From the NCBI GenBank assembly GCA_022842925.1, contig JALHOQ010000010.1, forward strand, positions 1-38,146: a stretch of DNA of 38,146 nt, read 5' to 3'. This document shows, piece after piece, positions 1,876 through 35,863 of this stretch. Origin of the DNA: Bdellovibrionales bacterium. Its GTDB lineage: Bacteria; Bdellovibrionota; Bdellovibrionia; Bdellovibrionales; UBA1609. The notes beneath the pieces are model-generated. The model was not told where the DNA came from. It searched no databases and saw nothing but the letters and a program-made list of their open reading frames with translations. A program made the translations under genes and the position numbers. Numbering within the stretch: position 1 is the stretch's first letter; each line of letters starts with the position of its first letter.

Positions 1876-1996
1876 AAATTGCCTTTTGAGATCCCTTTTT
1901 CACCATATAAGCGTAGACAGTGACTCTGACTGCGAAGCGAGAGAATTTTTCTAAGCCTCCCGCAAAAGCTTCAGGGTCACGATTAGAAGGGATCCC

Positions 1997-4537
1997 ATGT
2001 TTCGCCTCGCCCTGCTCGCCACAGTCGCCCTAACCGCCGTCCCCTCACTGGCCAAATCCGAAGACCCGAGCCATTACCTGATGCATAAATTCCGCGGCGG
2101 TGAGCGAGTCGTTTTTCGCACTGGCGGCAACGGCCTCCAAGGCGTGTACTATGTCGGCCAAGACGATCGTGCCATTTTGATCGATCCCCGCCACCCTTAC
2201 TTCATGGGCCAACCCGAAGGCGCTCGCGAGGCAACCGTCACGATTACCAAGGCCAGCGATATGGCGACGGCCCATTGGAAATTGCAGGGCCTGAAAGGCC
2301 TTGCCTACGCGATCATGGGCGGTGACATTCTTCTTATTAACGAGAAGGGTCAGCATCGTCGCTTCTCGCTTCTGCCCGCCGGGACGCCGAACTTTCAAGA
2401 AATGAATATTCTGGATTGTATGGTCTACGACTTCGACGGAAGGAAACACCTTTACATCGGTTATAGCGTCAACACATACGACAAGGCCACGGGCATCTTG
2501 ATCGATGAAGAGTTCCGTTACGCGAAGAAAGAAGTTTCACGCGCGGAAGGCGCTAACGGTTCTCTGATCGTGGAAGAACTCAAGTCCGCAATGCCCGTCT
2601 TGGCGGATGGAGTCTACTCGGCCGAATCTTTGTACACCGACGCCGACCTTTCTAAAGCCTACCTGAAACGAGAAAGCGCAGATCCGGAGTACGTAACACT
2701 GGCCCACGCGCAAGGTTTGAGCGGTCAGCATAAGCCGTTGGTCGACGTTGAGGTTTTAAACAACGAAGGTAAAACGGTGAGCGCGGTTGAGTTCCTTAAG
2801 ACGTTCTCCGTCAACCTTACCGAGAAGTATAAGAGCGCCCCATTTGGTGGAGTGCACGTCAACGAACGCAAGATTCTTGAAATGGCGGAGGTCCTCGCGG
2901 GATACGAAATCACCAGCGTCGCCTACCTCGGGTACCCTGGTACGGGTAAAACGACCGACATCAACATGATGATCAGCGAGGCGGCCAACGGGCGCGGACC
3001 CGAGTTTCTACGGGAGTATACCTTTATTAAACTTGAGCCCGGCGCCATGGATGCGCAGATGTGGCGGGGGTCAACGGAGGCCAAGATCACCGCATTAAAA
3101 GCGCTCGCCCGTAAGAACAAGGTCATTTTTGTCATTGATGAATTCCATCGGATCAAGGGCATGGCTTCACACCGTGACCGACCGCACGACGTCACCGAAG
3201 ACCTAAAGGACGATATGGCTGAAGGGGTTTTAAAGATCATCGGCATGTCCACGGATTCCGAATTTCATGGCGCGGGGTTCTCTAAACCATTCCAAGAACG
3301 TTTTATCCTGGTCAACAAAGATGAGCCAACGGGTGCTGAGCTGATCGCCATGCTACGCGGGTGGATTCTCTCCCGTCACTTGCAGAATCCGGGTGACGCC
3401 TTTTTGCATGAGGCCAATCGGATCGCTGAACGCTTTGCCGGCATTGGCGCCCAACCTCGAAAAACCACAAAACTCCTCGATGCCGTCTATGCCCGCCTAA
3501 AACTCACCGGCCAGGAAGGCCAGACGCCGGACATTGGTCTTTTGCATGACGTCGCTCGACAACGATTCGGATTCGATCCCGTTCTGATCGACACTAAACT
3601 GGCTCGCCAGCGACTCGAGCAGATGATCCGCTACATGGACAGTCGGATTATCGGCCAGACGGAAGCTCGAGCCCTGCTCGAGCGCGCCACTATCCGCGCC
3701 CTTTCAAACTTAAATTCGGGCCAAGGGCCGCGAATGAAAATTCTGCTTACGGGCGAAGAAGGACAGGGCAAAACCACGATCAGCAAAGCGTACGCGCAAG
3801 GAATGGGACTTCCCTTTCATATTATTGACATGAGCAAGTACCGTCATGGCGCCCCCGTCGGCGCGGGTCCCCTTACAGAGGCCGCTGAGGCCATAGCTCG
3901 CAACGCCTTCACTGTTTTGATTTTCGATAAGATGGAAAGATCGGCCATCGAAATTCAAGAGCAGCTTCTGGAATCGTTGGAAAGCGGGCGAGCCTTGGTG
4001 CAAAAGCATACCAATGGCGGATTAAATAGCGAGCTCGTGGATTTTCGCAATGCCTCGGTGATCTTTAACGTGAACATCAGCGCTGACGAAATCCGACGCG
4101 GCAACCGCTCTGCCGGGTTCGTCAGTTTCGGCAAAAGAAAAGACAGGGAGATTCTGCAGAACGGCCAGATCTCACGCAATGTTTTGGATCAAGTTCCTGA
4201 TCAAGCGCTCGTTGAGGCTCTCAGTCGGGAGGATTTCCGATCCGCCGTCGCCCTTCACGTGGAAGATCTCCTTAAAGAATTTAAGTCTAAGGACTTGCAG
4301 GTGAATTTTCCCGACCGGGAGGTCTTTTTGGACTTTGCCGCTTCTCTCTGGCGCGAGAACATTTCGAACCGACGGATCCACGATATTCTGCAACAGATTC
4401 GGGATTACTTGGCGCAAGAGAAAGTGTTGGCCCAGAATTCTCCGGCGTCGGACACTGTGGAGCTGCGTTTCGACGGCCGAAATCTGCGCCTATCGGGTTC
4501 GGACTCCGCCTACTCGTGTGAAGATCTACTGTTCTAG
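1997..4537 (+). CDS. ClpA/ClpB-like double AAA+ ATPase with an N-terminal signal peptide
   Basis: The 846-residue product begins with a convincing signal peptide (MFRLALLATVALTAVPSLA, cleavage after Ala19). A unique region of about 270 residues follows, then two AAA+ modules in the Hsp100 arrangement. Module 1: Walker A GYPGTGKT 312-319, Walker B VIFVIDE 376-382, sensor-like GMSTDSEFH 416-424 and ERFILV, matching the ClpB 'GATT-DEY...ERRF' layout. Module 2: IIGQ 551-554, Walker A TGEEGQGKT 585-593, and a Walker B VLIFDKMER 640-648 in which the catalytic Glu after Asp is replaced by Lys, so the second ATPase site may bind but not hydrolyse ATP. No M-domain is recognisable. ClpB works in the cytosol; a leader peptide on such a protein is odd because the periplasm lacks ATP. 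The 'signal' might instead be an uncleaved membrane anchor. The ribosome binding site AAGG lies 6 bases before ATG 1997. The stop overlaps that of the convergent gene. Confidence 0.8.
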   Translation: MFRLALLATVALTAVPSLAKSEDPSHYLMHKFRGGERVVFRTGGNGLQGVYYVGQDDRAILIDPRHPYFMGQPEGAREATVTITKASDMATAHWKLQGLKGLAYAIMGGDILLINEKGQHRRFSLLPAGTPNFQEMNILDCMVYDFDGRKHLYIGYSVNTYDKATGILIDEEFRYAKKEVSRAEGANGSLIVEELKSAMPVLADGVYSAESLYTDADLSKAYLKRESADPEYVTLAHAQGLSGQHKPLVDVEVLNNEGKTVSAVEFLKTFSVNLTEKYKSAPFGGVHVNERKILEMAEVLAGYEITSVAYLGYPGTGKTTDINMMISEAANGRGPEFLREYTFIKLEPGAMDAQMWRGSTEAKITALKALARKNKVIFVIDEFHRIKGMASHRDRPHDVTEDLKDDMAEGVLKIIGMSTDSEFHGAGFSKPFQERFILVNKDEPTGAELIAMLRGWILSRHLQNPGDAFLHEANRIAERFAGIGAQPRKTTKLLDAVYARLKLTGQEGQTPDIGLLHDVARQRFGFDPVLIDTKLARQRLEQMIRYMDSRIIGQTEARALLERATIRALSNLNSGQGPRMKILLTGEEGQGKTTISKAYAQGMGLPFHIIDMSKYRHGAPVGAGPLTEAAEAIARNAFTVLIFDKMERSAIEIQEQLLESLESGRALVQKHTNGGLNSELVDFRNASVIFNVNISADEIRRGNRSAGFVSFGKRKDREILQNGQISRNVLDQVPDQALVEALSREDFRSAVALHVEDLLKEFKSKDLQVNFPDREVFLDFAASLWRENISNRRIHDILQQIRDYLAQEKVLAQNSPASDTVELRFDGRNLRLSGSDSAYSCEDLLF

Positions 4538-5124
4538 AACTCGTCACGAATGGAGCTGATCGAAACGCCCGTTAACTCGGGTACCAAATCACACTTGAGC
4601 TGCGTGGGCTTGCAGGGCGTGCCGGCGCTTTTAAAATCGAGCATTTTAGATGCGGACACTGGAATCTTTAGAAGATGAGTTTCATTGGCCCGTACATAGG
4701 ACGATTGCGGGAATGTCAGATCGACTAAATGGGGAATTTTTAAATGACAGAGCGGGCCTGATGGCGTCGACACTTCGCTCTGTCCCCGCGCATAGGTTTC
4801 GAAGTGGGCGGCCGTGACCAAGAAAAGGGCCGGGACCGGGTTTCCAGACGAGTCTACGTTGGGCACGGAGAATTCCAATCCCTTGCCCAACCCTTTCAGA
4901 CTTAAAAGATCTACGGATTTATTTCGGAGCTCGAGACTGACCACTGTTCCATCCTCTAGTACCAGATGGAGGCGCTTCACCGGAACCAGTAAGGCCCGAG
5001 TGAAGGCGTCGATATCCGAAGCGGTTGGGATGTAGGGGCAGGTTTTATCAGGTTTAGCTTCGGCCAGGGGCAGGCAAACAATAAGACTCAAAATGATCAG
5101 GGCTCTTAGTAAACGCGGGTCCAT
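4534..5124 (-). CDS. exported protein of unknown function
   Basis: A 196-residue protein starting at ATG 5124, chosen over an earlier in-frame start because GAGGAG lies 8 bases upstream. The N-terminus is a clear signal peptide (RLLRALIILSLIVCLPLAEA) followed by a mature protein with four Cys residues (TCP near the start, LCHL, PCKP and KCDL), which could form disulfides in the periplasm. The rest is a mix of predicted beta strands; I do not recognise the family. It converges with the AAA+ gene: the two stop codons share one CTAG at 4534-4537, so no terminator fits between them. A sigma-54-like element lies 32 bp upstream of the start. Confidence 0.7.
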   Translation of the reverse strand: MDPRLLRALIILSLIVCLPLAEAKPDKTCPYIPTASDIDAFTRALLVPVKRLHLVLEDGTVVSLELRNKSVDLLSLKGLGKGLEFSVPNVDSSGNPVPALFLVTAAHFETYARGQSEVSTPSGPLCHLKIPHLVDLTFPQSSYVRANETHLLKIPVSASKMLDFKSAGTPCKPTQLKCDLVPELTGVSISSIRDEF

Positions 5125-5155
5125 GCGTGGTTCTCCTCTTTGAGTCACTTAGAGA

Positions 5156-35155: not shown

Positions 35156-35863
35156 TTATAGAATCTGCACGGGCTTGTTGTGTACGACCAAACCTTCCAC
35201 GATAAAATTGTGCGGCTCCTTCTCCACGGTCAATGTCATCACCCGCGCCTGGCCTTCGACGGCGTATTCACCGCGCCGGACCAACAGGGCGTCGCAACCC
35301 GTACCGACGGCCGACGGCGCATGGTTTATTCCGCGCAGCAAATTGGCCGGCTCGACCTCTCCTATCCGTGAATAAAGCCCTTCCTCGGGAAGCAAAAAAG
35401 GATGATGGGGAGAAACTTCAAGAGGGACGCCGGTCGGCGTTCCGTGAAGGCGGCCGAAGATCTCTGAATTGGCTGTATGAATCTGAACGATCCGATTGTG
35501 AACGACCATGTTGATGCGCTCATCCCAAGAATAGACCGTATGGCCCACGCGTAGATTTTCGATTGCCACGTACCCGTTGGGGGTAAGGACACGCATCACA
35601 CAAGTGAAGCAATTCCGTTTTAAACTTTCTCCCGTCAGGTCTTCTACCGCAGCGGCAACTTCTTCGGGCGTGAACTTACGTCCCACCCGCTCCTCCATCT
35701 CGACGACCCGCACGAGCGCGCGGTCATCTGGCTCCTCAAACCATGCCGCCGCCAACTCCACTTTCATGGTTTCGACCCGGTCACTTTGAGCCCCAGCGGG
35801 CGATGTCCCAAGAAGGGTCAAGACCAAGAAGATCGCCCGCAAATTCCACGATAGATTGTCCAC
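35156..35863 (-). CDS. exported protein consisting mainly of a Hint (intein/hedgehog-type) domain
   Basis: 235 residues, GTG start with AGGAGG 6 bases upstream. Signal peptide ends near SPAGA. Residues 28-84 are a helical spacer. Residues 85-229 form a Hint domain: block A Cys85 in CFTCVMRVLTPNGYVAIENL with 'VGHTVYSW', block B SPHHPF (151-156), and block F/G MTLTVEKEPHNFIVEGLVVHN (His228-Asn229, then KP). The GT usually after CFxx is VM here. Hint domains cleave or splice proteins; in secreted toxins they release the C-terminal toxin. Here only six residues follow His-Asn, so no cargo is present downstream. Function unknown; a processing protease relic or a thioester-forming modifier is possible. 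Confidence 0.8.
   Translation of the reverse strand: MDNLSWNLRAIFLVLTLLGTSPAGAQSDRVETMKVELAAAWFEEPDDRALVRVVEMEERVGRKFTPEEVAAAVEDLTGESLKRNCFTCVMRVLTPNGYVAIENLRVGHTVYSWDERINMVVHNRIVQIHTANSEIFGRLHGTPTGVPLEVSPHHPFLLPEEGLYSRIGEVEPANLLRGINHAPSAVGTGCDALLVRRGEYAVEGQARVMTLTVEKEPHNFIVEGLVVHNKPVQIL

Follow-up and report, generated by a model that had tools for sequence, protein, structure and literature searches.

In bacteria, chaperones and proteases that depend on energy are assumed to be cytosolic. The reason is that the periplasm is described as being without ATP (PMC4632601), and exported AAA+ machines, which burn ATP, are for the same reason puzzling. The stretch of DNA analysed here (the window; 38,146 nucleotides of a Bdellovibrionales contig) raises this problem with an open reading frame in which two Hsp100-type modules follow what looks like a signal peptide. 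Is the product exported, and what could such a protein do outside the cytoplasm? The answer that we favor, with a probability of roughly 0.5, is that it is a Sec-exported Hsp100 derivative, driven by its first AAA+ module (D1), that does its remodelling of proteins outside the cytoplasm; a prey-derived compartment is a possible site.

An Hsp100-like gene with a Sec-type leader

The gene and its N-terminal features are as follows.

1985..1990, + strand: Shine-Dalgarno-like AGAAGG 5' of the leader-encoding ATG (direct sequence reading)
1997..4537, + strand: gene for the predicted exported double-AAA+ Hsp100-like protein, 846 aa (open reading frame, NCBIfam and PDB matches, profile, tree)
1997..2053, + strand: predicted Sec-type signal peptide, residues 1-19, MFRLALLATVALTAVPSLA (sequence; leader rule)
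2054..2782, + strand: N-terminal region, residues 20-262 (243 residues), with no Pfam match (Pfam search, models)

Cleavage is predicted between MFRLALLATVALTAVPSLA and the following K, where S17-x-A19 agrees with the -3,-1 rule. The next in-frame ATG encodes Met29, and by eye no Shine-Dalgarno-like site lies 5' of it. The leader, the two modules and a change in the Walker B motif of the second module (D2), all noticed in the preliminary description, are real. For the two modules this is borne out by NCBIfam, whose best match is ClpA (TIGR02639, E=1e-38, 133 bits, below the cut-off of 993), followed by ClpB (E=1.6e-35, 123 bits, below the cut-off of 1232), and by PDB matches to ClpC1 and ClpB over both modules. 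The name "ClpB-like" given at first is loose, since the M-domain spacing is absent and NCBIfam ranks ClpA top. As in ClpA, two AAA+ modules follow in the same order and at close spacing without the ClpB M-domain, and in several family members D2 sensor 1 is followed by an IG[FLI]-like loop. The family differs from ClpA in its leader, an unrelated N-domain, a deletion of the D2 pore loop, a C-terminal cysteine tail and its separate clade. Among the hallmarks of the cytosolic ClpA and ClpB, the window protein has the two Hsp100-type modules; it falls below the family cut-offs, is without the Tyr-bearing D2 pore loop and carries an export signal.

The N-terminal region had been described as unfamiliar and 270 residues long; the Pfam search of residues 20-262 matched no model, and the length found is 243 residues. 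Its start resembles that of other members (Y-x-F-x-N-G), and it is mostly strand in a low-confidence structure model (mean pLDDT 42 for the whole protein and 33 for the N-domain, values at which the models are uninformative).

Two other genes of the window encode predicted exported proteins. The convergent gene at 4534-5148 (- strand), which with its stop codon overlaps the Hsp100-like gene at its end, encodes a protein of 204 aa with no family assigned, and the gene at 35156-35863 (- strand) encodes one of 235 aa that by eye is Hint (hedgehog/intein) domain-like (CFTCVMRVLTPNG...VVHN).

A fast-evolving accessory family

A profile search of 369 genomes of the phylum, mostly drafts, found family members in 18. 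The last member scores 458 bits and the first ClpA 361 bits, and the homologues in relatives outscore those genomes' own ClpA by far. In the tree the 18 members form one clade with 100/100 support, apart from ClpA and ClpB. Their end branches are mostly 1.5-5.4 changes per column long, those of ClpA about 0.05-0.6, which marks the family as fast-evolving; because many branches are long, its inner order is unsure. The gene is absent from three other genomes of the same genus, so it is accessory, and it was not found in most genomes of the order.

A peptide-pattern scan with the L006/L005 pair found members in two metagenome-assembled genomes, Bdellovibrionales bacterium HKST-UBA12 and uncultured Bdellovibrionales bacterium VK3_bin-0444, which are our G021 and G029 and belong to the window organism's own taxonomic family; the same kind of contig scan with the window protein, a weak one, gave no match. 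So far the family is known only from some Bdellovibrionota, the view beyond the phylum being that of weak peptide-pattern scans. A viral match (L118, IMG/VR contig 3300042892_001479) was rejected as a member: it is an ordinary phage ClpA without a leader, beside DnaJ-like and peptide deformylase-like genes.

Degeneration of the second AAA+ module

We aligned 17 members with 7 controls and located the following motifs in the window protein.

2930..2953, + strand: D1 Walker A GYPGTGKT, residues 312-319 (K318) (alignment)
3062..3064, + strand: D1 pore-loop aromatic position, Trp356; Tyr or Phe in ClpA and ClpB (alignment)
3137..3142, + strand: D1 Walker B Asp381-Glu382, intact (alignment)
3299..3301, + strand: D1 Arg finger Arg435, intact (alignment)
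3752..3775, + strand: D2 Walker A GEEGQGKT, residues 586-593 (K592), intact (alignment)
3830..3895, + strand: site of the D2 deletion that removes the Hsp100 pore loop (GYVGYEEGG) from all 17 aligned members (alignment)
3926..3931, + strand: D2 Walker B Asp644-Lys645 (GAT AAG; AAG at 3929-3931), catalytic Glu replaced, in the window member only (alignment)
4190..4192, + strand: D2 Arg finger position, Gln732 (CAA); Arg in the other 16 aligned members (alignment)
4517..4534, + strand: C-terminal Cys tail CEDLLF, residues 841-846 (sequence, tail comparison)

All 17 members retain the Walker A Lys in both modules. The D1 Walker B reads DE in 13, DD in two and DN in two; Walker A, Walker B and the Arg finger of D1 are kept in most members and the aromatic pore residue in many. 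One member (L009) is without the D1 Glu and the D1 Arg finger, and in none of the 17 are both rings lost. At the D2 Walker B, 15 members have DE, one has EE and the window protein has DK. The D-K pair reported at first is thus present in the window protein, and another loss in this active site, overlooked in the first reading, lends it weight: the D2 Arg finger, Arg in 16 members, is Gln732 in the window protein alone. As a family trait D-K is rejected, being confined to this one protein among the 17. Catalytic Glu and Arg finger are accordingly both present in D1 and both missing from D2 (K645, Q732), where the sensor residue N693 and the sensor-II R792 are intact. The D2 pore loop is deleted in every member and present in 7/7 controls. 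Our reading of these patterns is that the D2 ring would be structural throughout the family and, in the window protein, without catalytic activity; with the pore loop and D2 functions lost, the protein could be something other than a threader.

The last point leads to the best of the alternatives, a Torsin-like remodeller: an exported, non-threading protein whose degenerate rings would serve as a nucleotide-switched clamp, perhaps with a partner supplying the Arg finger. TorsinA, an AAA+ protein of the ER, has neither Arg finger nor pore loops and carries a Cys in sensor II (PMC4999309). The likeness lies in a Clp-related AAA+ module of a secretory compartment without those elements, as in the D2 of the window protein, which lacks the Arg finger and, with all aligned members, the pore loop; weak Torsin Pfam matches, below the cut-off, also occur in relatives. 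Against this, TorsinA has a single module with a Gly-Cys-Lys sensor II, and the window protein has two modules, an intact D1 and Arg792 in place, with its cysteine (Cys841), like that of the family, at the extreme C-terminus rather than in sensor II. The motifs kept in D1 across most members, with the aromatic pore residue of many, also speak against it, and we consider a Torsin-like protein unlikely, if worth keeping in view.

A D1-driven exported unfoldase is preferred also over a decaying window copy, in which D-K and the R-to-Q change would begin the loss of an accessory gene that is dispensable. That both D2 losses occur in the window member alone, in a gene of accessory distribution known here from a single draft assembly of 320 contigs, would fit such decay; yet the 846-codon frame is open, and the D1 motifs, the D2 Walker A, N693, R792 and the Cys tail are all intact, which makes decay improbable. 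Assembly errors are less likely still, as two independent ones in one active site would be needed.

The leader is conserved in the family

The rule by which leaders were called is our own: it asks for a hydrophobic 9-mer and, after it, a small-x-small site, from any start codon within the first 80 codons. By this one rule they are called in 15 of 16 scored members, against 0/55 ClpA and 0/1 ClpB; the one uncalled member (L134) has a hydrophobic leader by eye, and another (L010) is cut off at a contig end. The window leader is therefore not a chance hydrophobic start. Orthologues without a leader would have spoken against the original claim, and homologues as distant as those in other families of the phylum retain it. 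Where the N-domain can be recognised, it begins at most about 15 residues from the predicted cleavage site. Low Cys content, also considered as evidence of export, was judged not decisive. Taken together, export of the Hsp100-like family is well supported at the level of sequence. An uncleaved anchor or a wrong start, leaving the AAA+ part in the cytoplasm as in FtsH or an ordinary Clp, gains something from leaders that rest on a rule and from three members (L008, L009 and L066) without Lys or Arg in the n-region, but it is hard to credit given the short h-regions, AXA-like sites and n-region Lys or Arg of most members, the Shine-Dalgarno-like site at the start codon and the want of such starts in any of the 55 ClpA.

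A candidate C-terminal sorting signal

A Cys stands near the C-terminus in 14/16 members with complete ends and is the only Cys of the sequence in six. The pattern C-x-x-[LIMV]-F-x(0,2)-end was found in 10/480 exported, 0/724 cytosolic and 0/147 membrane ORFs outside the family (about 1.7 Mb), and Ser decoys of the pattern are not enriched. With the first sample and first definitions the test was not significant (p=0.19); with a pattern narrowed after that sample, and a larger sample, p=9.6e-5, and the later sample alone gave 4/137 exported against 0/193 others (p=0.029). Among the carriers are a subtilase (Pfam 2.5e-29) and a protein with TPR; at least one that was counted as exported (L163:14588-16183) looks membrane-anchored. 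A literature search for such a C-terminal tail signal in Bdellovibrio returned nothing relevant. The Cys tail is thus a candidate sorting signal, an unproven lead.

Unrelated predicted exported proteins ending in C-x-x-[LIM]-F are encoded at L151:18881-19714, L160:11518-15330, L212:4115-5167, L213:1433-2767, L213:7836-8492, L240:12475-13062, L248:3096-4382, L250:3354-4121 and L252:13737-14930. The L240 gene follows an exported AAA+-M41 gene at a distance of 12 bases.

Other AAA+ architectures with leaders

Across the neighbourhoods of 17 members, the gene itself is all that is common; other matches are few, and each links only two neighbourhoods. Next to one member (L064), a gene on the same strand encodes a 1419-aa protein in which a leader is combined with two AAA+ modules and an M41 domain (Pfam 1.1e-11). 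Relatives of this AAA+-AAA+-M41 protein occur in 26/369 genomes; all 26 have HExxH and Asp as the third ligand, and a leader was called in 19 of the 23 that were scored. Of the four without a call, some are fragments or frame-broken. This family, distinct from that of the window protein, resembles FtsH in ending in an M41 domain with a HEAGH-type site and Asp third ligand; it differs in having two Clp-like modules against the one of FtsH, as well as a Sec leader and a Cys tail. Its tails (e.g. GSCKSLF, QTCARLFQ and LCAELFK) share C-x-x-[LI]-[FL] with those of the Hsp100 family. Its members, of about 1300-1450 aa, include L108:2748-7004 (- strand) and loci L167-L192, and their AAA1 Walker B is mostly N-E.

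A PrkA-like AAA+ protein with a leader is encoded near another member (L070, in L114). Its relatives, which are without the Cys tail, occur in 27 genomes, the window's own included, and have leaders in 24/27 scored loci. They comprise L114:10976-13420 (+ strand) and loci L254-L282, the copy in the window's genome being G000:C186:2878-5082 (L271).

A proposed model for an Hsp100 outside the cytoplasm

In the model that we propose, the leader would be removed and the ring would then assemble outside the cytoplasm. The N-domain may bind clients, which the D1 ring would move via its pore loop by ATP hydrolysis; the D2 ring would bind nucleotide only and stabilise or gate the assembly, and the Cys tail may anchor or sort the protein. 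ATP would be drawn from wherever the protein acts, for example a prey-derived compartment or the prey cytoplasm. The Bdellovibrionota include the predator Bdellovibrio; the organism is presumed from its relatives to be a predator itself, and any role of the family in predation is speculation.

The precedent is Plasmodium HSP101 of PTEX, an ATP-dependent Hsp100 that works in a host-derived vacuole (PMC8896661). Like it, the window protein would be an Hsp100/ClpB-type unfoldase outside its own cytoplasm, and HSP101 chains match it at E of about 1e-22; unlike it, HSP101 is a ClpB homologue with an M-domain. Such a system would need a leader, which is present, and an active Hsp100 ring, which is putative here; the 17 neighbourhoods offered no conserved neighbour as a pore partner at adjacent loci, a distant locus being possible.

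The two other AAA+ architectures with leaders support the model. Counting against it are a periplasm held to be without ATP, the pore-loop and D2 losses, the patchy occurrence of the gene, the want of conserved neighbours and the lack of an exported ClpP in the window's genome, where a search for a ClpP with a leader found one ClpP, without a leader.

A wider proposal, which we put forward tentatively and as somewhat doubtful, is that Bdellovibrionota export ATP-driven machines (Hsp100-like, AAA+-AAA+-M41 and PrkA-like) via Sec, that two or more of these carry as a tag a Cys tail not described before, C-x-x-[LIMV]-F/L, and that the bacteria would use the machines to unfold and degrade proteins outside their own cytoplasm, fuelled by ATP from the prey or from a sealed prey compartment. 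That one phylum has three separate AAA+ architectures with conserved leaders suggests that some compartment outside the cytoplasm is supplied with nucleotide, which is testable, and the Cys tail could lead to further exported factors, possibly predation factors.

In one genome with an exported Hsp100 (G019), a ClpP/S14-like protein with a lipoprotein-type leader (L095, G019:C107) is a possible periplasmic protease partner; such an S14-like lipoprotein was seen only there.
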